Below are positions 178-52,549 of a DNA stretch of 64,000 bases, in pieces. Within the stretch, counting starts at the first letter, position 1, and the number at the start of each line of letters is the position of its first letter. A model generated the notes under the pieces. That model made no database searches, was not told the origin of the DNA, and saw only the letters and a program-made list of their open reading frames with translations. This DNA comes from Arthrobacter sp. 35W. Lineage in GTDB: Bacteria > Actinomycetota > Actinomycetes > Actinomycetales > Micrococcaceae. The position numbers and the translations under genes were made by a program. Location of the stretch: positions 496,001 to 560,000 of the forward strand of contig NZ_KI519454.1 of assembly GCF_000482545.1 (NCBI RefSeq). Direction: 5' to 3'.

Positions 178-237
178 AACTGTGCGACAGCACGTGTCGC
201 TATGGGCGTCCATAACGACACGTGCTGTCGCACAGTT
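178..237. terminator. Long perfect inverted repeat between convergent genes
   Basis: Two 22-bp arms (178-199 and 216-237, starting AACTGTGCGACAGC) are exact reverse complements. Inside, TATGG and CCATA (201-205/210-214) pair again around a 4-base loop, giving a nearly continuous 27-bp stem. There is no T-tract on either strand. The position between the stop codons of two convergent genes suggests a bidirectional I-shaped terminator; that function is inferred. Confidence 0.75.
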
Positions 238-253
238 GATAGGTGGGCCGGTA

Positions 254-892
254 TTAGATGGTGACCGGACCGTTGGGGGTTTCGAAGGTGACGCTCATGA
301 TGCCGGGCGTGCCGCGCGGGGCGATCCACTCGACCTTGACGTCCTCCAGCGGCTTCTCCACCGGTTCGCCCAGCCATTCGGTGACGCGCTCGGCGCTGCC
401 GGCAATGGTCAGGGAGGCCAGACGGACATTGGACTCGCGGGCCAGCGAGGGGTGCAGCTCGGGATTGCCCTCCCACTTGAGCATGTACGGCACCTGCGGG
501 TCCGCGATGAGGCCCTTGATGCCGATCTGCTGCCAGATCAACTCCTGGCCGTCGGGGAACTTGCGGTTGCCGGGGACGGCGCTGCGGCCGAGGCGCTCTT
601 CGAAGGGGGTAAGGTCATCCACCGCCACGCACCAGCCCATCCAGCCGCCGCCGGCTGCCGAACGGGCCCGCACGGCCTGGCCAAAGGGCGCCTTGTCCGA
701 CGCCGGGTGGTCCAGGCACTCCACGACCTCCACATAGTGGTGGTCCGTGAGGGGGATGATCATATTGCGGGTGCCGAAGCGCGGGTGCACGCCTCCACGC
801 ACCGCTTCGACTCCAAGGGCATCGGCAATCCGTCCAGCGGTTGCTGCCAGTCCATCTGATTCACAGGCGTAAGAAACATGATCCATGCGCAT
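254..892 (-). CDS. VOC (glyoxalase-like) family protein
   Basis: A 212-residue cytosolic protein of the glyoxalase/VOC type. It begins MRMDHVSYACES, the usual first beta strand of a VOC module, followed by MIIPLTDHHYVEVVE with candidate metal-binding His and Glu. A second, weaker half starts near residue 90. The family includes dioxygenases, lyases and antibiotic-binding proteins, so no substrate can be named. The ATG at 890-892 is preceded at the right distance by CAAGAT, a weak -10-like hexamer, so a leaderless start is possible. It is divergent from tex with about 125 bp between them. Confidence 0.75.
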   Translation of the reverse strand: MRMDHVSYACESDGLAATAGRIADALGVEAVRGGVHPRFGTRNMIIPLTDHHYVEVVECLDHPASDKAPFGQAVRARSAAGGGWMGWCVAVDDLTPFEERLGRSAVPGNRKFPDGQELIWQQIGIKGLIADPQVPYMLKWEGNPELHPSLARESNVRLASLTIAGSAERVTEWLGEPVEKPLEDVKVEWIAPRGTPGIMSVTFETPNGPVTI

Positions 893-964
893 GGCTTCAT
901 CTTGGCACTTTGTGAAGTACGTCTCGACTTAGGGCCCCCTTATCGTCATAGGACGTCAGTTCAA

Positions 965-980
965 TCGTCATAATTGACGA
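965..980. promoter_or_regulatory. Dyad upstream of tex
   Basis: A 6-bp perfect dyad TCGTCA-TAAT-TGACGA lies 38 bp before the tex start, in the spacer shared with the divergent VOC gene. A related half (TCGTCAT) occurs at 943-949. It could be an operator for either gene; no regulator is identified. Confidence 0.3.
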
Positions 981-1017
981 CAGAGGCTGCCGTCCGGCGG
1001 GTCAAATTGCCTGATGT

Positions 1018-3408
1018 GTGCGGGACAATGGCACGGTGACTTCGCATCCCGCAGCCCCGATCCCTTCGCGCCCCAGCAGCCCTGCGCCGCGCACCGACCC
1101 ACGCCCCGGCGGACGCAGCCCCGGCGCTGCGGCGGACCCTGTGAAGCAGGAGGAACGGAAGCCGGAACGGCAGGGGCCGGATGCCCTGGAGCGGGCCATC
1201 GCCGCCGAGCTGGGAGTGCGCCCCGACCAGGTGCGGGCCGCCGTCGCCCTTCTTGACGGCGGGGCCACGGTGCCCTTCATCGCCCGCTACCGCAAGGAAG
1301 CCACCGGCACGCTGGATGATGCCCAGCTGCGCACGCTGTCCGAACGCCTGAGGTATCTGCGCGAGCTCGAAGACCGCCGCCGCGCCGTGTTGGAGGGCAT
1401 CGAGGCGGCGGGGAAGCTGACCCCCGCCCTGCGCGCCGCCGTGCTCGCCGCGGCCACGAAGACGGAACTGGAGGAGCTGTACTTCCCCTTCAAATCCACC
1501 CGCCGCACCAAGGCCCAGTCTGCCCGCGAGGCGGGGCTGGAGCCGCTGGCGGACGCGTTGCTGAAGGAGCCGCACCGCGACCCGGAGGCCACCGCCGCCC
1601 GCTACCGCAATGCGGAGCACGGCGTGGACGACGCCGGGGCCGCCCTGGCCGGGGCCCGGGCCATCCTGATCGAGCGTGCCGCCCAGGACACGGTGCTGGC
1701 ATCCGAGCTGCGCACCCGGCTGTGGAAGGGTGGGCGGCTGCGCTCGCGCCCCAAACCCGGCGCCAAGGCCGGTGTTCCGGGCGCGCCCGGCGGGGATGCC
1801 GCCGCCAAATTCAAGGACTATCTGGACTTTGTCCAGCCGCTGAACCGCCTGCCCGGGCACCGGGTGCTTGCCCTGCTGCGCGGCGAGGCCGACGGCGTGC
1901 TGGCCCTGGACATCGCCGAGGCCGATCCGCGTGATGCCGAGGTGCTGGCCGAGGCCCGGGGCTGGTACGAACGCGCCGTCGCCCGCTCGCTGGGCGTATC
2001 CCCGCGCGGCCGGGCGGCCGACGAGTGGTTGATGGGCAGCGTGGAGGCGGCCTGGCGCACGCGGCTGCTGGCCCGCCTGGCCACCGAGGCCCGGGGGCGG
2101 CTCTTTGCCGCTGCCGAGGAGGAGGCCGTGGCGGTCTTCGCGGCCAATCTGCGCGACGTCCTGCTGGCCGCACCGGCCGGCAACCGGGCCACCCTGGGGC
2201 TGGATCCGGGCCTGCGCACGGGGGTCAAGGTCGCCGTCGTGGACGGCACCGGCCAGGTGGTCGCCACCGATACGGTCTACCCGCATGCCCCGGCCAAGCG
2301 CTGGGACGAGGCCCTCGCCAAACTCGTGGCCCTGTCCAAAAAGCACCGCGTGGAGCTGGTGGCCATCGGCAATGGCACGGCCTCCCGTGAAACGGACAGA
2401 CTGGCCGCGGCGCTGCTGGCCGAGCTGAAGAAGCACGACGGCGGTGCCCCCGGCGCCGCCCAGCCCGCCAAGGTGGTGGTCTCCGAGGCCGGCGCCAGCG
2501 TCTATTCCGCCTCCGCCCTGGCATCGGCGGAGCTGCCCGGCATGGACGTCTCCCTTCGCGGGGCCGTGTCGATCGCCCGCCGACTGCAGGATCCGCTGGC
2601 GGAATTGGTGAAGATCGAGCCCAAGTCCATCGGCGTGGGCCAGTACCAGCACGATCTCACCCCGGCCCGGCTGGACCGCGCCCTGGACGCCGTCGTCGAG
2701 GACTGCGTGAATGCGGTGGGCGTGGACGTCAATACGGCCTCCCCGGCGCTGCTGGCCCGGGTGGCCGGCGTCGGCCCGCTGCTGAGCGAAAACATCGTGG
2801 CGTACCGCAATGAACACGGCCCCTTTGCCAGCCGGGCGGCGCTGAAAAAGGTGCCGCGGCTTGGCGCCAAGGCCTTCGAACAGTGCGCCGGCTTCCTGCG
2901 GATCACCGGGGGAGCGGAGCCGCTGGACGCCTCCAGCATCCACCCCGAGGCCTACCCCGTGGCCCGGAAGATCCTCGCCGCAGCGGGGGCCAAGGCCCCC
3001 GGTGCAGGGGCCGCCGCCGTCGCCGCTCTGGACCCGGCCCGCTTCGTGGACGGCGCCTTCGGGCTGCCCACTGTGGTGGACATCCTGGCGGAGCTGCCCA
3101 AGCCCGGCCGCGACCCGCGCCCTCGCTTCGCCACCGCCAGCTTCGCCGAGGGCGTGGAGAAGATCACCGATCTGCGCGCCGGCATGGTGCTGGAGGGAAC
3201 GGTGTCCAATGTGGCAGCCTTCGGTGCCTTCGTGGACATCGGCGTCCACCAGGACGGTCTGATCCACATTTCCGCAATGAGCACCCGGCGCATCAACGAC
3301 CCCCGCGATGTGGTCAAATCCGGCGACGTCGTCAAGGTCAAGGTGCTGGCGGTGGAGCCGGAGCGCAAGCGGATCTCCCTGACGCTGAGGCTCGACGACG
3401 CCGTCTAG
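1018..3408 (+). CDS. tex: Tex-family RNA-binding transcription accessory protein
   Basis: A 796-residue Tex/Spt6-like protein, a cytosolic nucleic-acid-binding factor linked to transcription. Domain order matches the family: the N-terminal helical region with the signature TVPFIARYRKEATGTLDD (residues about 83-100), a YqgF/RuvX-like fold starting TLGLDPGLRTG (about 391), helix-hairpin-helix repeats (about 570-640, NTASPALLARVAGVG), and a C-terminal S1 domain (about 721-790, GTVSNVAAFGAFVDIG). The length is slightly above the usual 720-780 because the first 45 residues are a Pro/Ala/Arg-rich tail not typical of the family. The GTG at 1018 has no clear ribosome site; GTG 1036 and GTG 1141 are in frame, and 1141 would remove the odd tail. 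Family call is firm, start is not. Confidence 0.93.
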   Translation: MRDNGTVTSHPAAPIPSRPSSPAPRTDPRPGGRSPGAAADPVKQEERKPERQGPDALERAIAAELGVRPDQVRAAVALLDGGATVPFIARYRKEATGTLDDAQLRTLSERLRYLRELEDRRRAVLEGIEAAGKLTPALRAAVLAAATKTELEELYFPFKSTRRTKAQSAREAGLEPLADALLKEPHRDPEATAARYRNAEHGVDDAGAALAGARAILIERAAQDTVLASELRTRLWKGGRLRSRPKPGAKAGVPGAPGGDAAAKFKDYLDFVQPLNRLPGHRVLALLRGEADGVLALDIAEADPRDAEVLAEARGWYERAVARSLGVSPRGRAADEWLMGSVEAAWRTRLLARLATEARGRLFAAAEEEAVAVFAANLRDVLLAAPAGNRATLGLDPGLRTGVKVAVVDGTGQVVATDTVYPHAPAKRWDEALAKLVALSKKHRVELVAIGNGTASRETDRLAAALLAELKKHDGGAPGAAQPAKVVVSEAGASVYSASALASAELPGMDVSLRGAVSIARRLQDPLAELVKIEPKSIGVGQYQHDLTPARLDRALDAVVEDCVNAVGVDVNTASPALLARVAGVGPLLSENIVAYRNEHGPFASRAALKKVPRLGAKAFEQCAGFLRITGGAEPLDASSIHPEAYPVARKILAAAGAKAPGAGAAAVAALDPARFVDGAFGLPTVVDILAELPKPGRDPRPRFATASFAEGVEKITDLRAGMVLEGTVSNVAAFGAFVDIGVHQDGLIHISAMSTRRINDPRDVVKSGDVVKVKVLAVEPERKRISLTLRLDDAV

Positions 3409-3422
3409 CGCCGTCTCAAGGG

Positions 3423-3461
3423 CAGCGGGCAGCGGCAGCGGGCAGCGGCAGCGGGCTGCGG
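3423..3461. repeat. Three tandem 13-bp repeats after tex
   Basis: Three head-to-tail copies of CAGCGGGCAGCGG (the third has CTG for CAG) directly follow the tex stop. The repeat is GC-only apart from one A or T per half unit and is likely prone to slippage. No function is visible. Confidence 0.8.
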
Positions 3462-3555
3462 CACGGGGCGCAGGCGCCGGCGGACATGGCACGGCACAAA
3501 CCGTCACATAACCGTCATATTCTTGCGCCCCGCCGCGGGCCTCTCCCACACTGAA

Positions 3556-3675
3556 TGCAGGTCATGAGTGTCAGCGACAAGCCCCGGCTCGCTGACCGGC
3601 AACCCTCCACCGCGGTGGGGTGCCCCGGGTGAAGACCTGGCCTTGGCCAATCGGCTCAAGGCAAGCGCGGGCCAC
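3556..3675 (+). promoter_or_regulatory. SAM-IV riboswitch upstream of metY
   Basis: The stretch beginning GGTCATGAGTGTCAGCG at 3560, with the blocks GCCCCGGCTCGCTGACCGGC, AACCCTCCACCGCGGTGGGG and TGCCCCGGGTGAAGACC, matches what I recall of the actinobacterial SAM-IV consensus. The P1 helix is visible as CAGGTC (3558-3563) with GACCTG (3634-3639). A 3' hairpin, the hallmark of the SAM-IV layout, pairs GCCTTG (3640-3645) with CAAGGC (3657-3662). It sits 88 bases before metY, as expected for feedback by S-adenosylmethionine on methionine synthesis. The exact 3' limit is approximate. Confidence 0.9.
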
Positions 3676-3712
3676 AGGTGCATCCTGGCCCACCGGCCGG
3701 GCCACCCGTGTC

Positions 3713-3748
3713 GTTGTGGGCAAGAGGTGCAGCTTGCGGGCCCACAAC
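3713..3748 (+). promoter_or_regulatory. Candidate riboswitch expression platform
   Basis: GTTGTGGGC (3713-3721) pairs perfectly with GCCCACAAC (3740-3748), and an inner GCAAG/CTTGC helix (3720-3724/3733-3737) overlaps it. The hairpin ends two bases before the metY ribosome site GAGGAG (3751-3756), and there is no T-tract. This arrangement suits control of translation rather than termination, but that is inference. Confidence 0.5.
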
Positions 3749-3762
3749 TCGAGGAGCCACTT

Positions 3763-5079
3763 GTGAGCACCGGTTGGTCTTTTGAAACCCGTCAGATCCA
3801 CGTAGGCCAGGAGCCCGACGCCACCACCGGCGCCCGCGCCCTGCCGATCTACCAGACGACGTCGTTCGTCTTCCCCAGCACCGAGAGCGCCGCCAACCGC
3901 TTCGCCCTCGCCGAGCTGGCCCCCATCTACACCCGCATCGGCAACCCCACCCAGGACGCCGTCGAGCAAAGAATCGCCAGCCTTGAGGGCGGCCTTGCGG
4001 CCCTGCTGCTCTCCTCCGGCCAAGCTGCAGCGACCTTTGCCGTGCTGAACATTGCCGAGGCCGGGGACCACATCGTCTCCAGCCCCAGCGTCTACGGGGG
4101 CACCTACAACCTGTTCGCCCACACGCTGAAGAAGTTCGGCGTCGAGGTCACCTTCGTGGCGGACCCCGACAACCTGCAGGACTGGCGCGACGCCGTCCGC
4201 CCCAACACCAAGCTGTTCTTCGGCGAAGTTGTCTCCAACCCGCGCCAGGACGTGCTGGACATCGAGGGTGTCAGCACCGTGGCCCACGAGGCCGGTGTCC
4301 CGCTGCTCGTGGACAACACCCTGGCCACCCCTTACCTGATCCGTCCGATCGAGTGGGGAGCCGACGTCGTCATCCACTCCGCCACCAAGTACCTGGGCGG
4401 GCACGGCAGCGCCATTGCCGGCGTGATCGTTGACAGCGGCAAGTTCGATTTCACGAAGGATCCGGAGAAGTTCCCCGGCTTCAACACCCCGGACGAGAGC
4501 TACAACGGCCTGGTCTACGGGCGCGACCTCGGCGCCGACGGTGCCCTGGGCGCCAACCTCTCCTACATCCTCAAGGCCCGCGTGCAGCTGCTGCGCGACC
4601 TCGGCTCCGCCGTCGCCCCGTTCAACGCCTTCCTCATCGCCCAGGGCCTGGAGACGCTCAGCCTGCGCGTGGAGCGCCACGTGGAGAACGCCCGCGCCGT
4701 CGCCACCTGGCTTGAGCAGCACGCCGACGTCGAGGCCGTCGCCTATGCCGGCCTGCCGTCCAGCCCCTGGTACGAGCGCGGCGTGAAGTACGGGCCCAAG
4801 GGCACCGGCGCCGTCGTCGCCTTCGACATCAAGGGCGGCATCGAGGCCGGCAAGCGCTTCGTGGACGGACTGGAGCTGCACTCGCATGTGGCCAACCTCG
4901 GCGACGTCCGCTCGCTGGTCATCCACCCCGCGTCCACCACCCACGCCCAGCTCACCGCCGAGCAGCAACTGGTCGCCGGTGTGCGCCCCGGACTGGTGCG
5001 CCTGTCCGTCGGCCTGGAGAACATCACGGACATCCTGGCAGACCTCGAGGCCGGCTTCCGGGCCGCCAAGAGCGCGTGA
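3763..5079 (+). CDS. metY: O-acetylhomoserine aminocarboxypropyltransferase (sulfhydrylase)
   Basis: A 438-residue PLP enzyme of the Cys/Met metabolism family. It makes homocysteine from O-acetylhomoserine and sulfide in the cytosol. The PLP lysine is K209 in SATKYLGGHGS. Other family blocks are YTRIGNPTQDAVEQRIASLEGG near the N-terminus (quoted in part here as YTRIGNPTQDAVEQ) and VDNTLATPYL, which carries the cofactor-binding Asp. The GTG at 3763 is chosen because GAGGAG lies 6 bases upstream and because a longer open frame back to 3568 would run through the riboswitch. The gene overlaps metX by four bases (GTGA), so the two are translationally coupled and both fall under the SAM-IV riboswitch. 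Confidence 0.95.
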   Translation: MSTGWSFETRQIHVGQEPDATTGARALPIYQTTSFVFPSTESAANRFALAELAPIYTRIGNPTQDAVEQRIASLEGGLAALLLSSGQAAATFAVLNIAEAGDHIVSSPSVYGGTYNLFAHTLKKFGVEVTFVADPDNLQDWRDAVRPNTKLFFGEVVSNPRQDVLDIEGVSTVAHEAGVPLLVDNTLATPYLIRPIEWGADVVIHSATKYLGGHGSAIAGVIVDSGKFDFTKDPEKFPGFNTPDESYNGLVYGRDLGADGALGANLSYILKARVQLLRDLGSAVAPFNAFLIAQGLETLSLRVERHVENARAVATWLEQHADVEAVAYAGLPSSPWYERGVKYGPKGTGAVVAFDIKGGIEAGKRFVDGLELHSHVANLGDVRSLVIHPASTTHAQLTAEQQLVAGVRPGLVRLSVGLENITDILADLEAGFRAAKSA

Positions 5080-6350: not shown

Positions 6351-6362
6351 GCCAGCCCGCCC

Positions 6363-6422
6363 AACTGGGGCGCAGAAACTGTAAAGAATCCGCGGATTCG
6401 GTGCAGTTTCTGCGCCCCAGTT
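6363..6422. terminator. Long inverted repeat between metX and the SGNH gene
   Basis: AACTGGGGCGCAGAAACTG (6363-6381) and its exact reverse complement (6404-6422) form a 19-bp stem. Its loop contains a second 14-bp palindrome, GAATCCGCGGATTC (6386-6399). There is no T-tract. It lies between convergent stops and is probably a bidirectional terminator. The flanking GCCCAACTGGG also occurs at the outer arm of the repeat at 39831. Confidence 0.75.
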
Positions 6423-6434
6423 TGCGTTGCGGGT

Positions 6435-7286: not shown

Positions 7287-7294
7287 TCCATACT

Positions 7295-7310
7295 GCTACT
7301 GATCGGTAAC
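7295..7310. promoter_or_regulatory. Candidate operator upstream of the SGNH hydrolase
   Basis: GCTACTGATCGGTAAC is an imperfect dyad eight bases before the start codon of the minus-strand gene. It matches 13 of 16 positions of the perfect dyad GTTACTGATGAGTAAC at 38595-38610. It could be a shared regulator site; the regulator is unknown. Confidence 0.4.
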
Positions 7311-7539: not shown

Positions 7540-7545
7540 ATGTGT

Positions 7546-10503: not shown

Positions 10504-11511
10504 ATGATGCCGCAGAACAAGGCCGGGACTGCACCGCGGGCCCATATGAGTCCGCTGGTTGGTGTTCCCCTGGCCGTTGCCGCTGGGCTGGCCATCCCTG
10601 TGCAGGGCCGGGTCAACGGGGCCTTGGGTGCCACACTCGACGACGGATTGGCCGCTGCGCTGGTCAGCTTCGCCGTGGGTTTGGTGGTCATCATCGCGGC
10701 TTCGCTCGTTATGCCGCGCGGCCGAGCCGGGCTGGCGGCCATGCTTCCGGTGATCCGTGCCCGGAAGTTTCCGCGCTGGTACCTGCTGGCCGGCGCCATC
10801 GGGGCGGTCTTTGTTCTCAGCCAGGGGCTGACTATCTCAGTCCTGGGCGTGGCCCTGTTCACCGTGGCCACCGTCACGGGACAGACGGTGAGTGGACTGT
10901 TGGTGGACCGGCTGGGCATCGGCCCGGCGGGCAAGAAGCGGATCAACGGCATGCGCGTCCTGGGTGTGGTGCTGACCATTGCCGCCGTCGCCTGGGCCGT
11001 CTCGCCGCGGTTGGGGGCCGGCCTCGATGTCGGATCCCTGGTCCTGCCGCTGCTGCTTCCGATGGCGGCCGGATTCATGGTGAGCTTCCAGCAGGCCATG
11101 AACGGCACCCAGACGCTGCACTACGGTACGCCCATCACCGCCACCCTGGTCAACCTGGTTTCCGGTACGGCCGTGCTGTTGATTGCCTGGCTTGTCAAGG
11201 CCGCCGTGGCTGGGGTGGGCAATCCGCTGCCGGGGGAGTGGTGGTACTACCTGGGCGGACCCTTGGGCTGCATCTACGTTGGCGTCACGGCTCTGCTGGT
11301 GCGCAGCCTGGGAGTGCTGCTCACCGGGCTGGGCATCATCGGCGGCCAGCTGCTGGGGTCCCTCGCTCTGGACATTGTGCTGCCTGTCCCCGGGTCGCAC
11401 GTTGCGCTGGCCACGGTTCTGGGTACGCTGTTGACTCTGGCCGCCATTGTGGTGGCGACGCTGCCCTGGCCCCGGGTGGTCCTGAAATCCTTCGGAAGGC
11501 AAGCACTGTGA
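10504..11511 (+). CDS. DMT-superfamily transporter (DUF606/YdcZ type)
   Basis: A 335-residue membrane protein with about ten hydrophobic segments in two repeated halves. Each half opens with a similar pattern (VPLAVAAGLAIPVQGRVNGALG in the first, cited here as QGRVNGALG; GFMVSFQQAMNGTQTLHYGT in the second, cited as FQQAMNG). This is the YdcZ/DUF606 arrangement of the drug/metabolite transporter superfamily. Substrate unknown. ATG 10504 and ATG 10507 are adjacent choices, with ATG 10546 also possible; open frame further upstream is antisense to the S4 gene. The stop overlaps the next gene (GTGA), so the lactonase is co-translated. Confidence 0.82.
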   Translation: MMPQNKAGTAPRAHMSPLVGVPLAVAAGLAIPVQGRVNGALGATLDDGLAAALVSFAVGLVVIIAASLVMPRGRAGLAAMLPVIRARKFPRWYLLAGAIGAVFVLSQGLTISVLGVALFTVATVTGQTVSGLLVDRLGIGPAGKKRINGMRVLGVVLTIAAVAWAVSPRLGAGLDVGSLVLPLLLPMAAGFMVSFQQAMNGTQTLHYGTPITATLVNLVSGTAVLLIAWLVKAAVAGVGNPLPGEWWYYLGGPLGCIYVGVTALLVRSLGVLLTGLGIIGGQLLGSLALDIVLPVPGSHVALATVLGTLLTLAAIVVATLPWPRVVLKSFGRQAL

Positions 11512-12692
11512 CCTACGCCCTCATTGGCAGCTACACCGAGTCCGGCAATGGCAGTGGCGCGGGGGTGTCGCGGGTGCTCCTGGGTCCCGATGGACTGCTG
11601 GCCAGTGTCGACGCCGTCGGGGCCGGACTGCGCAACCCCTCCTTTCTGGCCGTCGACCCGCTGAATGCGGACGTGCTGTACGCCGTGGAGGAGCTCGACG
11701 ACGGGGCCCTGGCCGAGCTGGATGCCTCGACGCTGGCGCTGCGCCGGCGCACGCCCACGTCCGGTGCCCACCCCTGCCACGTTGCAGTGGTCGGGAGCGG
11801 GGCCGACGCCGGTGCCGGGCGGACTGTATGGGCCGCCAACTACTCCTCCGGCAGCGTTGCGGTGCTGCCGGCCGACGGCGCCTGGGCCGGGAATGCACTG
11901 GACGGGTCGGCAACGTCTGCCGGTGCACCCGTCCTGCTGGCCAACCCCGGCATCGGCCCGGTGGCCGACCGCCAGGAGCAATCGCACGCCCACCAATCGG
12001 TTCCCACGCCCTGGGGCACGGTGCTCGTGGCGGACCTCGGAGCGGACCGGGTGGACGAGTACTCCGCCGCCGCGCCGCACATGCTGCTCGGCAGTGCAAC
12101 GCTGCCGCCTGGTGCGGGCCCACGCCACCTGGTCCTGCTCGGGGACGTGCTCCTGGTGGCCGGCGAGCTTGATGCCCGGCTGCACATCTTCTCCCGCGAC
12201 GGCGGAGCCGCGGGCGAATCCGGTGCCGACAAGGCCCCCGGCCAGAGCCGTCCGGCCCCCTGTGTCTGGCACTGGCAGTACAGCGTGGCGCTGTTCGACG
12301 ACACTCACCCGGCCTTCGATGCTGCGGCAGACCGCTACCCCTCACATCTTCAGGCCAGTGCCGATGGCGCCGTCGTGTACGCCGCGATCCGCGGCCGCGA
12401 CAGCATCGCCGTCGTCGACGTTTCAGCGCTCGGGAACGGAACCGGGAACGGAACCGGGGACAGGAACGGGAACGGCAGTGCGTCGGCCGCCCGGCCCGTG
12501 CTGCTGGACGAGGTGCCCTGCGGCGGCGCCTGGCCGCGGCACTTCGCCGTCGAGGGTTCCAAGCTTTATGTGGCCAATGAGCGCTCGCACACCATCGCCG
12601 TCTTCGCCCTGGACGAGGCCGGCGTGCCCGGTGCCGAGCCCCTCCAGCAGTTCCCACTCAACAGCCCCACCTGCATCCTCCTGCCCAACTGA
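11508..12692 (+). CDS. Lactonase-family seven-bladed beta-propeller protein
   Basis: A 394-residue protein of the 6-phosphogluconolactonase (YbhE/Pgl, PF10282) propeller family, starting MTYALIGSYTES. Repeating blade blocks are seen in NPSFLAVDPLNADVLYAVEE, SGAHPCHVAVVG, GTVLVADLGADRVDEY, AGPRHLVLLGDVLLVAGEL and FAVEGSKLYVANERSHTIAVF. The His and Arg of GPRH are typical of the active face. Members hydrolyse sugar lactones, but many homologues are uncharacterised. GTG 11508 overlaps the transporter stop by four bases with AAGG upstream. The final residues LPN and the TGA stop are encoded inside the left arm of the inverted repeat at 12684. Confidence 0.83.
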   Translation: MTYALIGSYTESGNGSGAGVSRVLLGPDGLLASVDAVGAGLRNPSFLAVDPLNADVLYAVEELDDGALAELDASTLALRRRTPTSGAHPCHVAVVGSGADAGAGRTVWAANYSSGSVAVLPADGAWAGNALDGSATSAGAPVLLANPGIGPVADRQEQSHAHQSVPTPWGTVLVADLGADRVDEYSAAAPHMLLGSATLPPGAGPRHLVLLGDVLLVAGELDARLHIFSRDGGAAGESGADKAPGQSRPAPCVWHWQYSVALFDDTHPAFDAAADRYPSHLQASADGAVVYAAIRGRDSIAVVDVSALGNGTGNGTGDRNGNGSASAARPVLLDEVPCGGAWPRHFAVEGSKLYVANERSHTIAVFALDEAGVPGAEPLQQFPLNSPTCILLPN

Positions 12693-12750
12693 GTGACAGT
12701 TATCGCACAAAATCGCGCTTCGAACGTGCGATAGCTGTCACCTACTTGGG
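12684..12750. terminator. Inverted repeat, family C copy 1, overlapping the lactonase stop
   Basis: GTGACAGTTATCGCAC (12693-12708) pairs with GTGCGATAGCTGTCAC (12726-12741) with one G-T wobble. The outer flanks CCCAACT (12684-12690) and ACTTGGG (12744-12750) pair with one mismatch. The left flank contains the last two codons (CCC AAC) and the first base of the stop codon of the lactonase gene. The element at 39831 has the same sequence in both arms. There is no T-tract; a terminator role is inferred. Confidence 0.72.
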
Positions 12751-12763
12751 CCGGGAGGGCCGG

Positions 12764-15251: not shown

Positions 15252-15310
15252 TTGAGGCGTGGGCTGATGCCGTTTAGATCCGTTCTAAAGGGCATCAGCC
15301 CACGCCTCAA
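15252..15310. terminator. Inverted repeat, family A copy 1
   Basis: TTGAGGCGTGGGCTGATGCC (15252-15271) pairs exactly with 15291-15310. Inside, TTTAG and CTAAA (15273-15277/15285-15289) extend the stem. It lies 7 bp after the GNAT stop and 40 bp before the next gene on the same strand. The copy at 16765 shares TTGAGGCGTG and TTTAG but has changed the middle six bases on both arms together. Confidence 0.78.
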
Positions 15311-16764: not shown

Positions 16765-16825
16765 GTTGAGGCGTGAGGTAGTGCCCTTTAGCCGCAGTCT
16801 AAAGGGCACTACCTCACGCCTCAAC
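16765..16825. terminator. Inverted repeat, family A copy 2
   Basis: A perfect 27-bp stem (16765-16791 with 16799-16825) and a 7-base loop. The left arm begins GTTGAGGCGTGAGGTAGTGC and ends CCTTTAG. No T-tract. It lies between the convergent YibE/F and TetR genes and is probably a bidirectional terminator. Its conserved ends and changed but still paired middle match the copy at 15252. Confidence 0.8.
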
Positions 16826-21688: not shown

Positions 21689-21795
21689 CGGGTCCCGATG
21701 TGCATCCGCGACGCACGTCCCCTTTGAGGACGCATCCACTACTGCGTCGTCAGCGGGGAAGTGCGTCGCCAGCCGGGGGAGCGGTCGTCGCACCG

Positions 21796-38415: not shown

Positions 38416-38489
38416 GGGGCTATAGCTCAGCTGGTTAGAGCGCGGGACTCATAATCCTAAGGTCCTCGGTTCAAGTCCGAGTAGCCCTA
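38416..38489 (+). tRNA. tRNA-Met (CAT)
   Basis: Cloverleaf with acceptor GGGGCTA/TAGCCCT (one terminal G-T), D-arm GCTCAGCTGGTTAGAGC, anticodon loop CTCATAA with CAT at 38450-38452, and T-arm CTCGGTTCAAGTCCGAG. The first base pair is formed, unlike initiator tRNA. The 27-43 pair is mismatched. Elongator Met is likeliest; a lysidine-modified Ile tRNA cannot be excluded from sequence alone. CCA is not encoded. Confidence 0.92.
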
Positions 38490-38497
38490 CCCTGCAG

Positions 38498-38530
38498 AAC
38501 CCCGGAACCACCTCTGGTTCCGGGGTTCTT
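38498..38530 (+). terminator. Intrinsic terminator after tRNA-Met
   Basis: AACCCCGGAACCA (38498-38510) pairs exactly with TGGTTCCGGGGTT (38515-38527) around a four-base loop. A short T run follows. Confidence 0.8.
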
Positions 38531-39823: not shown

Positions 39824-39830
39824 CCCCCTG

Positions 39831-39898
39831 CCCAACTGGGTGACACTTATCGCACATTTTTGGGCGATTTTTGTGCGATAACTGTCACCTAGTTGGGG
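39831..39898. terminator. Inverted repeat, family C copy 2, overlapping the M23 stop
   Basis: CCCAACTGGGTGACACTTAT and CGCAC (39831-39855) pair with 39873-39897 with one G-T wobble and one C-C mismatch over 25 bp. The arms carry the same sequence as the element at 12684. The right arm contains the stop codon of the convergent M23 peptidase gene (39889-39891). The T-rich loop differs from copy 1. Confidence 0.75.
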
Positions 39899-40467
39899 CG
39901 GGGGGTGAGGGGGAGCAGGATGGACGGGCGGCGGTCCTGCACAAATTGCAGCGGGTCCAGGTACTCCTCGCCGCGGCGGACGCCCCAGTGCAGGCAGCTG
40001 TGCGGGGAGGCCATCATGGATCCGCAATGGGTGGGCCCGTCAAGGATGCCCACCGTCTGGCCCTGGGCGACGCCGGTGCCCGCTGCCGGGGCGCCCGTGA
40101 CTGGTTCGAAGCTGCTCAGCAGCCCGTTGGCGTGGCGGATGGTGACGACGTCCCTGTCCACCACCTGCCCACTGAAGACCACCACCCCGTCCGCCGGGGC
40201 CGTGACGGGAACGCCCTGGGCCGCGGCGAGATCAACCCCGCGGTGCCCCGCCAGCCATGGCTTGGGCGGCGGCGCAAAGGGATGCACGACGGCGGGGCGC
40301 GGCACCAGCGGCCAGGTCCACGGTGGCGGGGGAGCGGCGCCGGCACTCGGGTCCCCGGGTGCCGGCAGCACCAGGGCCAGGAGAAGGGCCAGTGCGAAGG
40401 CGGCCGCCAATGGGCGGGCGCGGGTCCGTGGATGGAAACAGATCGGCAGGGGCTGGCTCCGGGTCAT
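39889..40467 (-). CDS. M23-family peptidase (LytM-like)
   Basis: A 192-residue exported protein: basic N-terminus, signal helix (about 18-38, LAAAFALALLLALVLP), then an M23 fold. The first metal motif is intact in HRGVDLA. The second, normally H-x-H, reads SCLHWG, so the first His is replaced by Cys. This is common in a subset of actinobacterial homologues and may weaken hydrolysis. The likely target is peptidoglycan. The ATG at 40465-40467 is chosen because it directly precedes the signal peptide; a longer frame to 40623 adds a non-conserved stretch. It is divergent from rpsB, a typical placement. Its C-terminal Pro-Asn and stop come from the inverted repeat. Confidence 0.85.
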   Translation of the reverse strand: MTRSQPLPICFHPRTRARPLAAAFALALLLALVLPAPGDPSAGAAPPPPWTWPLVPRPAVVHPFAPPPKPWLAGHRGVDLAAAQGVPVTAPADGVVVFSGQVVDRDVVTIRHANGLLSSFEPVTGAPAAGTGVAQGQTVGILDGPTHCGSMMASPHSCLHWGVRRGEEYLDPLQFVQDRRPSILLPLTPRPN

Positions 40468-41744: not shown

Positions 41745-41802
41745 ACTCACCACTGGCAGGAGCGCCGCCCATCGGGGCAGAGCGCTCCTGCCAGTGGCGA
41801 GT
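41745..41802 (+). terminator. Long hairpin between rpsB and tsf
   Basis: ACTCACCACTGGCAGGAGCG (41745-41764) pairs with 41783-41802, with one A-C mismatch. The 18-base loop is GC-rich. There is no T-tract and tsf follows 43 bases later on the same strand. It may act as an attenuator or RNA-processing site that sets the S2:EF-Ts ratio; this is inferred. Confidence 0.6.
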
Positions 41803-43644: not shown

Positions 43645-43713
43645 GAACACTGGAGCTGCGCAGCGCTGAGCGCCGCCATTGACGTTGAGTATGCATTTGC
43701 GAGGGAGAGACAC

Positions 43714-45578: not shown

Positions 45579-45617
45579 CGCGTTCAACGGTTCCACGCCT
45601 CCGCGGGGCCGGCAACG

Positions 45618-45623
45618 TAGGAT
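45618..45623 (+). promoter_or_regulatory. -10 element of the DivIVA-domain gene
   Basis: TAGGAT, with a predicted leader of about 80 bases. No clear -35. Confidence 0.42.
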
Positions 45624-45709
45624 GAATTCGACGCGCGTGGCGGACATGCCGTGCGCGACAGCCAGAGCACGTGACGACGTGCTTGACAGCAGAGGAAAAC
45701 CAGCAAGGA

Positions 45710-46297
45710 ATGACTGTGACCGTGGAAGAGATTGACAGGACCGAGGCGCCGTTTGGGCGCGTAGCCAGCAAGGACTACGGCTACAACGTCAAGCAGGTTG
45801 ACCAGTTCCTCGACCGTGCCCGGGCCTTCTATACGTCCGAGGACACCTCGCACAAGGCGCTGACCTCCCACGAAGTCCGCGCGGTTTCCTTCGACCCGGC
45901 CAAGGGCGGCTACGAGGCGCGGGCCGTCGATGCCGCGCTGGACCGCCTGGAGGATGTGTTTGTCCAGCGCGAGCGTGACGAGCTGATCGCGGCCAAGGGC
46001 GAGGACGCCTGGCTGCTGCAGATCGGCAAGATCGCCTCCGTGCTGCGCGGGCGCCTGCACCGGCCCGACGGCGAACGCTTCCGCCGTGCCAAGGGGCGGG
46101 TCGCCAGCTACTCCACTGATGATGTGGACGCGCTCTGCGTGGAGCTGGTGAAGTACTTCGAAGAGGACAAGCCGTTGAGCGTGGACGTGATCCGCCGCGC
46201 CGTCTTCGCCCCGGCCACCGGTGCCGCCGGCTACGACGAGGCGCAGGTGGACGCCTTCCTCGACCGCGTCGTCGAGATGATGGCCTCGATCGACTAG
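45710..46297 (+). CDS. DivIVA-domain-containing protein
   Basis: A 195-residue cytosolic protein with three short DivIVA-like motifs: GYNVKQVDQFLDRARAFY, GYEARAVDAALDRLEDVF and GYDEAQVDAFLDRVVEMM (about residues 22-40, 64-82 and 175-193). In DivIVA this motif lies at the membrane-binding N-terminus; repeated copies without a long coiled coil define a smaller actinobacterial family linked to cell pole or septum. ATG 45710 touches AAGGA, while GTG 45716 has it at a normal 6-base spacing and may be the true start. A frame back to 45671 is unlikely. Confidence 0.82.
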   Translation: MTVTVEEIDRTEAPFGRVASKDYGYNVKQVDQFLDRARAFYTSEDTSHKALTSHEVRAVSFDPAKGGYEARAVDAALDRLEDVFVQRERDELIAAKGEDAWLLQIGKIASVLRGRLHRPDGERFRRAKGRVASYSTDDVDALCVELVKYFEEDKPLSVDVIRRAVFAPATGAAGYDEAQVDAFLDRVVEMMASID

Positions 46298-46318
46298 CGC
46301 TGTCCGACCCAAACCTTT

Positions 46319-46379
46319 CGCGAAGAGGCAGTTGGGGACAGTCCGGACGCTCCGGACTGTCCCCAACTGCCTTTTCGCG
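46319..46379. terminator. Inverted repeat, family B copy 1
   Basis: A 29-bp stem (46319-46347 with 46351-46379, one G-T wobble) and a 3-base loop. The core of the left arm is GCAGTTGGGGACAGTCCGGA. It lies between the convergent DivIVA-domain and symporter genes. The copy at 52485 shares GCAGTTGGGGA and TCCGGA, while the three bases between differ on both arms so that pairing is kept. Confidence 0.82.
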
Positions 46380-46428
46380 TGTGGGGTGGTGCGGGGTGGG
46401 GGCGATTGGTGCGGGGTGTGGCGCGCGG

Positions 46429-47907: not shown

Positions 47908-48299
47908 TTCTCACCCACCAGATCGAGATAGCGTGCCTCGTTGCGGGCCGCCGCGCGGACAAAGAGCCACGCGCAGAGGCAGACCACCGGGTAGATGCCC
48001 ACGCCCAGCACCAGCCAGGGCAGCGGGATGCCACCCAGCCGCACCTCCAGCAGTCCGGGCAGCAGGGTGGCCAGCAGCCAACAGCCGGCGAGGACCAGGG
48101 CAAAGGCTCCGGCCACCACGGCCGCCAGCCGCAATTGGGAGCGGATGAGGGATCGGACAAACACCTCGCCCACCTGGGAGTGCTCGGAGACCTCCTGCGC
48201 GACGCTGGCGCGGACCGGTGCAGCATTGGCCAGCCGGCGCGGTGCCTCCACCCGGACACGCTGCGGGGGCTCCGGGGCGTCCTGGCCCGGAACCGTCAC
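47904..48299 (-). CDS. DUF485-like small membrane protein
   Basis: A 131-residue protein with a soluble N-terminus (about 1-55) and two membrane helices (LAAVVAGAFALVLAGCWLLA and PWLVLGVGIYPVVCLCAWLF). This layout is that of DUF485 proteins, which are encoded next to acetate-type symporters. The sequence is diverged from the second DUF485 gene at 50451. It overlaps the regulator gene upstream and the symporter gene downstream by four bases each, showing tight coupling. Confidence 0.75.
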   Translation of the reverse strand: MTVPGQDAPEPPQRVRVEAPRRLANAAPVRASVAQEVSEHSQVGEVFVRSLIRSQLRLAAVVAGAFALVLAGCWLLATLLPGLLEVRLGGIPLPWLVLGVGIYPVVCLCAWLFVRAAARNEARYLDLVGEK

Positions 48300-49021
48300 G
48301 GCTGCGGCCTGACCTTGGTCGCGGCCAGTCGTTCGCGCAGCAGAGGAAGATGGCGGCGGCTGACGGGCAGTTCGGCATCGGCCACGGACAGCGTGGGGCG
48401 GGCTGCACCGAGTTTGAGCGAGCTGACAAAGGGCATGCAGACCAGATACGAGCGGTGGATGCGCAGGAAGCCGGCCGCGGCCCAGCGCTGTTCCAAATCG
48501 GCCAGCGGGACGCGGACCAGATAGCTGTCGTGGGCCGTGTGCAGCCTGGCGTAGTCGCCCTGGGCCTGGACATAGCGCACCTCGTCAAGGCGGATCAGCC
48601 GGCTGGTGCCGCCCTTCTCCACGGTGATCATTTCAGCCTCTGGGCCCTCCGGAGCCGGGGCCGCCAGTTCGGTGAGCCGCCCCACGGTGGCGGCCAGCCG
48701 CTCGGCCCGCACCGGCTTGAGCAGGTAGTCCACCGCGGCAAGCTCAAAGGCCTGCAGGGCGCAATCCTCATCGGCCGTCACAAAGACGACGGCGGGAGGG
48801 TTGGGGCGGGCGTTGATGGCGTGGGCGATCTCCAGCCCGGACAATCCCGGCATATGGATGTCCAGGAACAGGGCATCGATGCGGCTCTGCTCCAGGATGG
48901 CCAGTGCGGCCCGGCCGCTGCCTGCGCGGTGGATCTGCCCGATCCGCCCATCCTTGCCGAGCAGGAAGGACAATTCCGCCACGGCGGGAAGCTCGTCGTC
49001 AGCGACGAGGACATTGATCAT
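48296..49021 (-). CDS. LytTR-family response regulator
   Basis: A 241-residue regulator with a receiver domain (1-120) and a C-terminal LytTR DNA-binding domain (about 135-235). The phospho-acceptor is D54 in LFLDIHMPG, with the acidic pair DDE at 8-10 and K102 in LLKPVRAE. LytTR blocks are IRLDEVRYVQAQGDYARLHT and FLRIHRSYLVCM. LytTR proteins bind two direct repeats about 21 bp apart; such a pair is found at 50341-50372. It lies 35 bp after the kinase gene. Confidence 0.92.
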   Translation of the reverse strand: MINVLVADDELPAVAELSFLLGKDGRIGQIHRAGSGRAALAILEQSRIDALFLDIHMPGLSGLEIAHAINARPNPPAVVFVTADEDCALQAFELAAVDYLLKPVRAERLAATVGRLTELAAPAPEGPEAEMITVEKGGTSRLIRLDEVRYVQAQGDYARLHTAHDSYLVRVPLADLEQRWAAAGFLRIHRSYLVCMPFVSSLKLGAARPTLSVADAELPVSRRHLPLLRERLAATKVRPQP

Positions 49022-49056
49022 GGCAACAGTGTAGGCAGTGCCGCGGCTGCGGGGAG

Positions 49057-50313
49057 TCAGGCGTCGTGGTCCGGCTGGGATTTGGGCACCCGCATCGCCA
49101 CCAGGGTCCCAGCGCCGGGCGCGGTGTCAATGACCAGCCCAAAGTCGTCCCCGTAGACCTGCCGCAGGCGGGCGTCCACATTGCGCAGACCCACATGGTC
49201 GCCGTCGCGGTGGCCGGCGAGCACACTGCGCAGATGCTCCGGATCGATCCCCACGCCGTCGTCCTCGATGGTGACCTCCGCCAGCGCCCCCTGGTCGCGG
49301 GCCATGATCTTGATGTGGCCCACGCCCTCCTTGGCCTCCAGGCCATGGCGCACGGCGTTCTCCACCAGCGGCTGCAGGGACAGGAAGGGGATCACCGTGC
49401 CCAGCACCTCCGGGGCGATCTGCAGGTTGACCTGCAGCCGCTCGCCAAAGCGCGCCCGTTCCAGCAGCAGGTATCTGTCGATGCAGAGCAGCTCTTCGGC
49501 CAGCGTGGTGAAATCACCGTGGCGGCGGAAGGAATACCGGGTGAAGTCGGCAAATTCCACCACCAGCTCCCTGGCCCGGACAGGGTCGGTGTTGATGAAG
49601 GAGGCGATGGCGTTCAGCGAGTTGTAGATGAAATGAGGACTGATCTGGGCCCGCAGCGCCCGCACCTCGGCCTCCATCAGCAGGGTGCGGCTGGCACCGA
49701 GCTCGGCCAACTGCACCTGCGCGGAGATCCACCCGGCCACCTCGTTGGCCGCCCGCACCAGCGCCGGGCTGGCCTGTTTGGTGAAGGCCAGCACACAGCC
49801 CACCACCCGGGCATCGACCTGGATGGGGGAGGCGACGGCGGCCTTGACGCCATGGTCGGCACCGGCCAGGCCCAGATCCACCAGCTGGGATTCGTCGAGC
49901 GTGCACACCTGCGTTCTGCCGGTGGCCAGTGCACGCGCAGCCAGCGCCATCACCGCCCGGCTCCTGGCCGCCGATGGCGTGCGCGGGGCGGACCGCTCCG
50001 TGCGGGCCGCCGCGTCCCAGGCCAGCGGAGCCGATTCATCGGTCAACGCCAGGGCCGTGCAGTGCAGCATGGACCGCAGCGCCTTGGACGCTTTCATGGC
50101 ACCGGCCGGTTCCAGACCGTTGCGCAGATGTCCGCCGGCCACTGTGGCCAGGTGGAGGGTGGTGTAGGTGGCCCGCTCCGCGTCGGTGCCCAGCTCGCGG
50201 CGCCGCCGCGACAGCCGGAAGCCCAAGGCGCCCGCCACGCCGGCGCCCAGGAGCACGACCGCGGCAGCGGCCAAGAGCACGGCGCTGAGCAAAACCGGGA
50301 AGGAATCGGGCAT
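49057..50313 (-). CDS. LytS-type sensor histidine kinase
   Basis: A 418-residue kinase. One N-terminal membrane helix (about 6-33) is followed by a GAF-like sensor region (about 60-200) and a His-kinase domain of the LytS/YehU class. The phospho-acceptor is H227 in LRAQISPHFIYNSLNAI. ATP-binding boxes are QPLVENAVRHGLE (N box) and EDDGVGI and GLRNVDARL (G boxes). With a single membrane helix and a large cytosolic sensor it probably senses an internal metabolite. It is divergent from the DUF485-actP operon. Confidence 0.9.
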   Translation of the reverse strand: MPDSFPVLLSAVLLAAAAVVLLGAGVAGALGFRLSRRRRELGTDAERATYTTLHLATVAGGHLRNGLEPAGAMKASKALRSMLHCTALALTDESAPLAWDAAARTERSAPRTPSAARSRAVMALAARALATGRTQVCTLDESQLVDLGLAGADHGVKAAVASPIQVDARVVGCVLAFTKQASPALVRAANEVAGWISAQVQLAELGASRTLLMEAEVRALRAQISPHFIYNSLNAIASFINTDPVRARELVVEFADFTRYSFRRHGDFTTLAEELLCIDRYLLLERARFGERLQVNLQIAPEVLGTVIPFLSLQPLVENAVRHGLEAKEGVGHIKIMARDQGALAEVTIEDDGVGIDPEHLRSVLAGHRDGDHVGLRNVDARLRQVYGDDFGLVIDTAPGAGTLVAMRVPKSQPDHDA

Positions 50314-50340
50314 GGAGCAAGACTAGCGCCCGCACCATCC

Positions 50341-50372
50341 GCCATTGGGCGCAGCCTTGGTGCCATTGGGCG
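50341..50372. promoter_or_regulatory. 21-bp-phased direct repeat, candidate LytTR binding site
   Basis: GCCATTGGGCG occurs at 50341-50351 and again at 50362-50372, an exact 21-bp offset with a 10-bp gap. Two direct repeats on the same DNA face are what LytTR regulators bind. The site lies between the divergent kinase gene and the DUF485-actP operon, 79 bp before the latter. Confidence 0.55.
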
Positions 50373-50417
50373 ACGGCGGGATGCGGTGGACGGTCCAGCC
50401 CCCGCCGGAGGGTTGAT

Positions 50418-50433
50418 AGTGAAGTGCATCACA
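50418..50433. promoter_or_regulatory. CRP/GlxR-type site upstream of DUF485-actP
   Basis: AGTGA-N6-TCACA matches nine of ten positions of the CRP-family consensus TGTGA-N6-TCACA. It ends 17 bases before the DUF485 start. Acetate transport genes are often under cAMP-type control. Confidence 0.5.
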
Positions 50434-50450
50434 TCACTCAAGGAGGAATG

Positions 50451-50816
50451 ATGGGTACTTCAGCCCAACCCACGCCACACGATCCGGTTCCCGAGATTGA
50501 TTTTGAAGAGGTCCAGGCCACCGCCGAGTTCCAGCATCTGCGCCGCAAGCACCGCAGTTTCGTCTTCCCCGTGGCCATCGCGTTTCTGCTCTGGTACTTC
50601 CTGTACGTCCTGCTGGCCGACTACGCCCACGATTTCATGTCCACCAAGGTCTTCGGCAGCATCAATGTGGGGCTGCTGCTGGGGCTGGGCCAGTTTGTGA
50701 CGACCTTCGCCATCACCACCTGGTACGTCAGCTACGCCAACCGCAAGCTTGATCCCGACGCATCCGCGATCCGGCGCCGCCTCGAGGAACCGTCCCTGAG
50801 CCAGGAAGGAGCCTGA
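50451..50816 (+). CDS. DUF485 domain-containing protein
   Basis: A 121-residue membrane protein with two helices. The DUF485 block starts at FQHLRRKHRSFVFPVAIAFL and continues WYFLYVLLADYA; the second helix is followed by TWYVSYANRKLDP. These proteins are encoded directly upstream of acetate symporters (YjcH with ActP in E. coli). AGGAGG lies 4 bases before ATG 50451; ATG 50448 is nearly on top of it. actP starts after 2 bp. Confidence 0.9.
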   Translation: MGTSAQPTPHDPVPEIDFEEVQATAEFQHLRRKHRSFVFPVAIAFLLWYFLYVLLADYAHDFMSTKVFGSINVGLLLGLGQFVTTFAITTWYVSYANRKLDPDASAIRRRLEEPSLSQEGA

Positions 50817-50818
50817 CC

Positions 50819-52465
50819 ATGGGCGCCTACATGTCCCTGCCTGCCGCCGTCCCCGCGGCCCTGGCGACCCAGATGAAGGACACCACCTGGATCAACATTC
50901 TGATCTTCTCCGCCTTCGTGGCCATCACCCTGGTGGTGGTGTTCCGGGCCAGTCGCAACAACAAGACGGCAGCCGACTACTACGCGGCCGGCCGTTCGTT
51001 TTCCGGTGGCCAGAACGGCACCGCGATCGCCGGCGACTACCTCTCGGCGGCGTCGTTCCTGGGCATCACCGGGGCCATCGCCGTCAACGGCTATGACGGC
51101 TTCCTCTACTCGATCGGCTTCCTGGTGGCCTGGCTGGTGGCCCTGCTGCTGGTGGCCGAACTGCTGCGCAACACCGGCAAGTTCACCATGGCAGATGTGC
51201 TCTCCTTCCGGTTGAAGCAGCGCCCCGTGCGCATCGCTGCGGCCACCACCACGCTGATGGTCTGCTTCTTCTACCTGCTCGCGCAGATGGCCGGTGCCGG
51301 TGGACTGGTCTCGCTGCTGCTCGGTCTGGACAGCAAGGACACCCTGGGCCAGGCCGTGGTCATCACCGTGGTGGGCGGTCTGATGATCCTGTACGTGCTG
51401 ATCGGCGGCATGAAGGGCACCACCTGGGTGCAGATCATCAAGGCTGCGCTGCTGATTGTCGGCGCCGCGGCGATGACCATCATCGTGCTGGCCATGCACG
51501 GCTTCAACCTGTCCACGCTGCTGGACGCCGCGGTGGCCAAGGCCGGCGACGGCGGAGCCGCCCTGCTGAATCCGGGCAAGCAGTACGGTGCTACGGGCAC
51601 CTCCAAGCTCGACTTCATCTCGCTGGCGCTGGCCCTGGTGCTCGGCACGGCGGCCCTGCCGCATGTGTTGATGCGCTTCTACACGGTGCCCACGGCCAAG
51701 GAGGCCCGCAAGTCGGTGGTGTGGGCCATCTGGCTGATCGGCGTCTTCTACCTGTTCACCCTGGTGCTCGGCTACGGCGCCGGCGCCCTGATCGGTGCCA
51801 AGGAAATCCTCGCGGCCCCCGGCGGCGTCAATGCCGCGGCCCCGCTGCTGGCCTTCGTCATTGGGGGACCGGTGCTGCTGGGCTTCATCTCCGCCGTCGC
51901 CTTCGCCACGATTCTGGCGGTCGTGGCCGGACTGACCATCACAGCGGCGGCCTCTTTTGCCCATGACATCTATGCCAACGTCATCGCCAAGGACAAGTCC
52001 AACCCGCAGATGGAGGTCAAGGTGGCCCGCCGCACGGTGGTGGTCATCGGCGTCGTGGCCATCGGCGGCGGCATCCTGGCCAATGGGCAGAACGTGGCCT
52101 TCCTGGTGGCGCTGGCCTTCGCCGTCGCGGCCAGTGCCAACCTGCCGACCATCCTCTACTCGCTGTTCTGGAAGCGCTTCACCACCCAGGGTGCGCTGTG
52201 GAGCATGTACGGCGGCCTGGCCGTGGCGATCATCCTGATCGCGTTCTCTCCGGTGGTCTCCGGCAGCCCCAAGGCCATGATCCCCGGCGCCAGCTTTGCC
52301 TGGTTCCCGCTGGCCAACCCCGGTTTGGTGTCGATCCCGGTGGCCTTCTTCCTGGGCTGGCTGGGCACCATGCTGGACAAGAGCACGGAGGATCCCGCCA
52401 AGCAGGCAGAGATGGAGGTGCGCTCGCTGACCGGCGTCGGAGCCGAGAAGGCCACCAACCACTAG
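50819..52465 (+). CDS. actP: Cation acetate symporter
   Basis: A 548-residue SSS transporter with about 13 helices. Diagnostic blocks are YYAAGRSFSGGQNGTAIAGD, YLSAASFLGITGAIAVNGYD, GTAALPHVLMRFYTVP and AVAFATILAVVAGLTITAA. It imports acetate and possibly pyruvate or propionate with Na or H ions. It is paired with DUF485. The promoter region carries a CRP-type site and a LytTR-style repeat. The gene ends before the family B inverted repeat. Confidence 0.93.
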   Translation: MGAYMSLPAAVPAALATQMKDTTWINILIFSAFVAITLVVVFRASRNNKTAADYYAAGRSFSGGQNGTAIAGDYLSAASFLGITGAIAVNGYDGFLYSIGFLVAWLVALLLVAELLRNTGKFTMADVLSFRLKQRPVRIAAATTTLMVCFFYLLAQMAGAGGLVSLLLGLDSKDTLGQAVVITVVGGLMILYVLIGGMKGTTWVQIIKAALLIVGAAAMTIIVLAMHGFNLSTLLDAAVAKAGDGGAALLNPGKQYGATGTSKLDFISLALALVLGTAALPHVLMRFYTVPTAKEARKSVVWAIWLIGVFYLFTLVLGYGAGALIGAKEILAAPGGVNAAAPLLAFVIGGPVLLGFISAVAFATILAVVAGLTITAAASFAHDIYANVIAKDKSNPQMEVKVARRTVVVIGVVAIGGGILANGQNVAFLVALAFAVAASANLPTILYSLFWKRFTTQGALWSMYGGLAVAIILIAFSPVVSGSPKAMIPGASFAWFPLANPGLVSIPVAFFLGWLGTMLDKSTEDPAKQAEMEVRSLTGVGAEKATNH

Positions 52466-52484
52466 CGGCCTTCCAGCCAAACCG

Positions 52485-52549
52485 CACACGAAAACGCAGT
52501 TGGGGATGGTCCGGATCGTCCGGACCATCCCCAACTGCGTTTTCGTGTG
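52485..52549. terminator. Inverted repeat, family B copy 2
   Basis: A perfect 31-bp stem (52485-52515 with 52519-52549) closed by a 3-base loop TCG. The left arm core is GCAGTTGGGGATGGTCCGGA. No T-tract beyond GTTTTCG. It lies between convergent actP and the next gene. Together with 46319 it defines family B. Confidence 0.85.

Follow-up and report, generated by a model that had tools for sequence, protein, structure and literature searches.

Why should a high-GC bacterium carry long inverted repeats without a T-tract between genes that converge on one another? The question is raised by a 64,000-nucleotide stretch of the Arthrobacter sp. 35W genome (contig NZ_KI519454.1, positions 496,001 to 560,000; G000:C1:496001-560000 of the 4.66 Mb host genome, G000), referred to here as the window, which has a GC content of 65-70%. 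A first-pass annotation, made from the letters alone, had pointed to eight such stems, most of them in convergent spacers, and all eight were recovered by a stem finder; their arms measure 26-33 nt and contain between 0 and 4 mismatches. The eleven convergent gene pairs that it had counted, three of them with gaps below 25 bp, were reproduced by a codon-usage gene caller, and the shorter hairpin and the tandem repeat that it had placed in two further spacers are visible in the sequence. The reading favoured here, with a probability of roughly 0.55, is that the stems include lineage-specific palindromes resembling repetitive extragenic palindromes (REPs), which have spread through the genome and serve as hairpins, potentially two-way, at the 3' ends of mRNAs.

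The stem pattern is real and strongly non-random. It was assessed in a systematic sample of 910 kb outside the window, taken mostly from contig C1 (with three stretches of C2 and a tiny one of C4), by scoring stems at +1 per match and -2 per mismatch, with a loop of at most 22 nt and a census threshold of 15; spacers of 25-600 bp were counted, shorter and longer ones as well as those of the window being dropped. Among convergent spacers, 44 of 78 held a stem reaching the threshold; the corresponding counts were 45 of 332 for co-directional spacers and 2 of 104 for divergent ones (Fisher p = 2.5e-14 for convergent versus co-directional and 4e-4 for co-directional versus divergent), and convergent spacers exceeded co-directional ones in all three length classes compared. 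When the 78 convergent spacers were put through 20 rounds of dinucleotide shuffling, no stem of this score arose, and only six of 117 such stems lie inside called genes, even though 83% of the sample is coding. The enrichment at convergent spacers that had been proposed as a check is upheld, with one correction: it is strongest there but is a feature of gene 3' ends at large. These counts depend on a home-made gene caller that misses islands of lower GC and may trim gene starts, and on a stem finder that is blind to inverted repeats that are long and imperfect or have a large loop.

Two kinds of stem can be told apart: ordinary hairpins, after which T is modestly enriched, and members of repeat families. 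Clustering of the arms over 974 kb, including the window, grouped stems from unrelated sites into families, named F1 to F6 for the purpose of this report, with nine members in F1, nine in F5, eight in F3, four each in F6 and F2 and three in F4. More than half of the longest stems are copies of such lineage-specific, REP-like families, since, among the 39 stems of the 910 kb sample whose arms reach 24 bp or more, 23 are matched by the F1, F3 or F5 models; as the F5 model also matches F4 and one F6-like copy, some of the families may be related. For stems outside the families, the median start lies 18 nt past the nearest stop codon (102 stems), and the T fraction in the 8 nt that follow them is 0.34, compared with 0.172 further on (118 gene ends). 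F1, on the other hand, starts at a median of 3 nt behind the stop (71 sites) and is followed by a T fraction of 0.153, compared with 0.183 further on, with TTT occurring within 8 nt at only four of 97 gene ends; F3 and F5 are intermediate (0.28 compared with 0.168; 21 gene ends). The description of the stems as T-less thus suits F1, applies less well to F3 and F5 and fails for the ordinary stems. The mean GC content of F1 is 54%, well below that of the window.

F1 is a 67 bp palindrome composed of two inverted 25-nt half-sites (CCCAACTnnGTGACAnnTnTnnCAC) flanking a 17-nt centre. About 70 copies are present in the genome, which makes F1 a dispersed, multi-copy extragenic palindrome. Copies were analysed as 71 sites in 51 stretches picked for holding F1, 66 of which are exactly 67 bp long; the five off-length sites, among them L236:1999, L258:3005, L259:2949 and L256:4999, which are distant relatives rather than true F1, were dropped from the arm, flank and subtype analyses. 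Allowing one mismatch, the half-site occurs genome-wide 64 times on the forward and 64 times on the reverse strand, and a reversed control pattern never; the equal counts fit paired arms without proving the pairing. With up to four mismatches, 137 arms were found in 1.38 Mb of the genome, of which three are unpaired, each with four mismatches. At variable positions, pairing between the two arms of a copy was seen in 654 of 990 cells, whereas shuffled arms gave a mean of 548 and a maximum of 598 (1000 shuffles), and 17 of the 66 copies are perfect across the outer 25 pairs. Conservation within each arm is position-specific: positions 8-9 of the 132 half-sites read AG 52 times, GG 42 times, GA 38 times and AA never, and the arm subtypes at positions 21-22 differ within the copy in 25 of 66 cases. 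Folding energies are alike on the two strands, as a two-way element requires. The flanks of the 66 sites are C-rich in the left 12 nt (405 of 792) and G-rich in the right 12 nt (407 of 792), and flank-to-flank pairing beyond the 67 bp does not overall exceed that of shuffled partners.

The placement of F1 is closely tied to stop codons. Its sites comprise 31 convergent, 39 co-directional spacers and a single divergent one, and 69 of the 71 fall in the interval from -13 to +40 nt around a stop codon, 30 of them with such a stop on either side. F1 itself supplies the stop codon for 25 of 99 nearby gene ends, 14 times at its positions 7-9 (TGA or TAG) and 11 times at positions 11-13 (TGA), so that the encoded proteins have ends such as ...PN* or ...PTG*. 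In co-directional spacers of at least 150 bp, 28 of 28 copies lie within 40 nt of the upstream stop, a position for which uniform placement predicts 7.2. If the effective stem begins near position 10 of the element, it would lie approximately 10-18 nt behind most stops, near the distance at which ordinary stems start. The other families are distributed in a comparable manner, with eight convergent, five co-directional and two divergent sites for F5, and 16 convergent, 15 co-directional and one divergent site, plus four at edges, for F3 when tandem copies are counted singly. The F3 arrays, with a spacing of roughly 130-225 bp (L016:3038-4048, L230:4052-4949, L231:354-1021 and L231:5504-6236), indicate that this family has also grown through local duplication of a longer unit. 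Pairs of F5 copies lie approximately 1.07 kb (L027:17545-18674) and 0.5 kb (L032:1356-1930) apart, one copy of each pair being in a divergent spacer.

Outside the host the families are rare. The F1 model gives at least 143 strand-matches in the host, 28 and 24 in two congeners and at most four in each of the other 20; the F5 model at least 45 in the host, 23 in G009 and at most eight elsewhere among the 22 congeners; and the F3 model at least 147 in the host, tandem arrays included, two and one in two congeners and none in 20, the host counts being lower bounds. The exact F1 half-site occurs in one of 295 genomes of the taxonomic family, namely the host. At six F1-like loci of the congeners G004 and G013, the open reading frames (ORFs) also stop near the element, as judged from the ORFs alone. 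A different motif, absent from the host, is found nine and eight times in G010 and no more than twice in four other genomes; G010 appears to have repeat families of its own.

The turnover of these elements can be followed at the spacer downstream of MutY, which was selected because F1 occupies it in the host. MutY and a gene ending in ...ENGFGEL converge in all 23 genomes examined, and in the host MutY ends in ...LPN* with its stop inside F1. Among the 22 other genomes, eight carry a stem of at least 14 in this spacer, in no case F1 (in two pairs the sequence is shared), three carry a weaker one and 11 have none by the stem finder; two of these 11 spacers are only 12 and 13 bp long, and at least two (L292 and L297) hold, by eye, long imperfect repeats that the finder overlooked. 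In G004 (L280) the spacer is filled by a different 24-bp palindrome, GTCTCGACAGGCTCGACCACC, the core of which, GACAGGCTCGAC, occurs four times, counting both strands, in 1.38 Mb of the host genome. Less complete comparisons were obtained at other sites. The gene upstream of the F1 copy at window position 12684 ends in ...CILLPN*, its stop codon belonging to F1; in the four relatives in range the protein has another ending (for example ...IVLA*), and the corresponding spacers have stems of only 9 to 12. Downstream of YibE/F (site 16765), 85 of 89 relatives lack a stem above 10, which is a weak test since the next gene seems mostly to be a different one and the convergent TetR neighbour is within range in only one; an Arthrobacter-like YibE/F was also encountered in a record titled Sporosarcina beigongshangi REN13, a title that is probably a misidentification. 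For site 15252, a single stem of 12 was present among six of the 36 relatives in range; for site 21708, none of six among the 70 in range had a stem of 9 or more. No convergent partner was found for the ParE-like orthologues, which were not used as an empty site.

Taken as a whole, the comparison backs the earlier suggestion of mobile palindromes: the families lie at unrelated host sites, are rare or absent in 22 congeners, and the MutY hairpin differs between species, and so the families appear to be, or to have been until recently, mobile through some mobiliser, even if the comparison showed neither a transposition event nor an exact empty site. The accompanying idea that they are kept because they are harmless fits less well, given the 28 of 28 copies near the upstream stop. 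Copies located behind stops probably act in the formation of mRNA 3' ends for one or both neighbouring genes. With F1 directly behind or over the stop codon, a strong hairpin would follow as soon as translation ends, and it would either terminate transcription in the absence of a U-tract or block exonuclease and read-through at the 3' end. Since the palindrome is symmetric, one copy could serve both converging genes, and a bidirectional terminator role, already raised by the first-pass annotation, is plausible from this symmetry, the placement and the similar predicted folding energy on both strands.

Several observations weigh against this reading. F1 is followed by no T excess and so is not a canonical intrinsic terminator; a hairpin in the MutY spacer is dispensable, as half of the congeners are stemless there by the finder; and the more frequent pairing of arms within a copy may be a leftover of perfect ancestral copies that are now decaying. 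Two F1 sites depart from the placement rule, namely the divergent one and L241:3066, at which the end of a called gene falls 62 nt into the element. Neither a mobiliser nor an insertion footprint was found. The RAYT transposase domain associated with REPs (Y1_Tnp, PF01797) has no match in the host, with matches in two of 23 genomes of the genus and five of 14 control genomes; no lone F1 arm with three mismatches or fewer occurs in the 1.38 Mb searched; and direct flank repeats of at least 3 nt are not above shuffled partners in the 66 copies, which speaks against a target duplication, 2-nt matches numbering eight compared with 4.9. Integron attC sites were set aside: the integrase model TIGR02249 gave ten matches in the host, none over the cut-off, but the 14 control genomes also remained below it, so that a positive control was lacking. 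In IMG/VR the F1 half-site gave two single matches, neither within a stem of at least 12.

A rather unlikely alternative, though the strongest of those considered, is that the palindromes are selfish and without function, inserting anywhere and persisting solely downstream of stop codons, the place at which they are least harmful. Tolerated insertions would indeed produce the near-absence of stems from called genes and divergent spacers, and the MutY spacer, in which the hairpin turns over rapidly and is dispensable, points in the same direction, as do the tandem arrays of F3. Such elements would not be expected to hug the stop in long co-directional spacers as F1 does, nor would their survival explain why families unrelated to each other, and ordinary stems too, are placed alike at 3' ends. 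It is improbable that all of the stems are simply ordinary bidirectional or I-shaped terminators, each evolved in place and with no mobile repeats involved. That view suits the stems outside the families, with their T excess and their median start 18 nt behind the stop, and U-poor hairpins have been published for Streptomyces (PMC8269248, PMC12207403); it is already disfavoured for the families by a primary sequence shared among unrelated sites, and it leaves unexplained some 70 copies of one sequence, usually of exactly 67 bp, the low GC content of F1 and the near-confinement of the families to one species. More improbable still is that F1 functions as duplex DNA bound by a dimeric protein, for example as a transposase end, a road-block or a site for a nucleoid protein, with the hairpin being incidental. 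The position-specific conservation in each arm, the occurrence of only three of the four purine pairs at positions 8-9, the constant spacing and the 25 of 66 copies with differing arm subtypes could be understood in this way, but conserved arms are also expected from recent copies, the arms of one copy pair above shuffled arms and several other families are placed alike; no candidate protein was found, in a search limited to PF01797 and TIGR02249.

Placed beside known systems, the stems are more than plain terminators and yet close to REP biology. GTAG/CGTC REPs are described as short dispersed palindromes, often species-specific and of several types per genome, that occur mostly in convergent and unidirectional spacers, at 20 bp or less from both stops when convergent; GTAG REPs often provide a TAG stop, and CGTC REPs are without a known transposase (Di Nocera et al. 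2013, PMC3733652). F1 resembles them in being dispersed, nearly species-private, located at gene 3' ends (69 of 71 sites) and a source of stop codons (25 of 99 ends), and since published REPs do both, its placement and its supply of stops are behaviours that were already known. It differs from REPs of 20-40 bp in its length, full symmetry and lack of a conserved unpaired tag: by eye, no shared GTAG/CGTC tag is present in the flanks of the 71 sites, and the paired GACGC/GCGTC ends of F3 hold CGTC within the stem. Classical REP/RAYT membership is not supported, as RAYT was not found in the host genome, and the main text of PMC3733652 contains no mention of Arthrobacter or Actinobacteria. According to work cited in the RepRanger paper (PMC12306157), ribosomes stall and translation is reduced where a REP follows a stop within 15 nt, and that paper itself places 446 of 4,072 E. 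coli REPs so near; the F1 hairpin likewise stands directly behind the stop, but does so in most copies. The REP survey in PMC12306157 tabulates one Arthrobacter genome, and the F families are not described in the available portions of that paper; a literature search on Arthrobacter palindromic repeats yielded no description of these families, which is no proof of absence.

In Streptomyces, U-poor hairpins (HS-U-lack, I-shaped) and bidirectional ends are reported at transcript 3' ends, with 55 bidirectional ends in S. clavuligerus and median 3' untranslated regions of 66-76 nt (PMC8269248, PMC12207403). The stems described here share with these the form of high-GC actinobacterial hairpins with little or no U-tract, and differ in belonging to repeat families, none of which is described in the available portions of those papers. 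The impression that the stems exceed ordinary terminators in length is real, but long U-poor hairpins as such have precedents. Miniature inverted-repeat transposable elements (MITEs) such as RUP, Correia/NEMIS, ERIC and RPE, of approximately 100-200 bp and listed mostly with target duplications or TA ends (Delihas 2007, PMC2229807), are likewise short, non-autonomous inverted-repeat elements that form long stem-loops near or in genes; F1, unlike them, has no target duplication and no internal body beyond its 17 nt.

Within the window, F1 is represented at 12684-12750 (12683-12751 by the stem finder), where its positions 7-9 provide the TGA stop of the upstream gene (11508-12692), and at 39831-39897 (39824-39904), in a 65-bp convergent spacer whose right-hand gene takes its stop from the element (-9). 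F5 copies occupy convergent spacers at 46319-46379 and, with perfect 31-bp arms, at 52485-52549. F2 is found at 15252-15310, between co-directional genes and 7 nt behind a stop, and at 16765-16825, with perfect 27-bp arms in a convergent spacer. An F6 palindrome with 28-nt arms (178-237) lies in a convergent spacer, at distances of 5 and 16 nt from its two stops, and a palindrome with 30-nt arms (6363-6422), 12 nt from either stop of its convergent pair, clusters with a single other copy (L011:19339). Three co-directional stems had previously gone unlisted: an F3 copy at 21710-21767 (stem from 21708), a stem with 21-nt arms and no family match at 41745-41802, and an ordinary 15-bp stem at 38496-38529 downstream of a tRNA gene (38416-38489). 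The short ordinary hairpin at 59563-59592 (12-bp arms) and the short GC-rich tandem repeat from 27384 to approximately 27470, in a convergent spacer, were identified by eye. An Rfam scan of the window returned a SAM-IV riboswitch at 3560-3673 (RF00634, 116.9 bits) and three tRNAs only.

The favoured reading, of REP-like palindromes at mRNA 3' ends, raises the question of what copies a palindrome where no RAYT is found. One bolder possibility, considered unlikely, is that some actinobacteria harbour RAYT-free families for which a mobiliser or copying route not yet described ensures insertion at stop codons, or retention exactly on them, the gene-end hairpin being swapped wholesale between sister species. 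The approximately 70 near-identical copies at different genes constitute a natural series for studying termination, mRNA protection and stop-codon effects. If the favoured reading is correct, the gene ends of this high-GC bacterium would be rebuilt quickly from nearly species-private repeats, and such rebuilding would explain the long U-poor stems between its converging genes.

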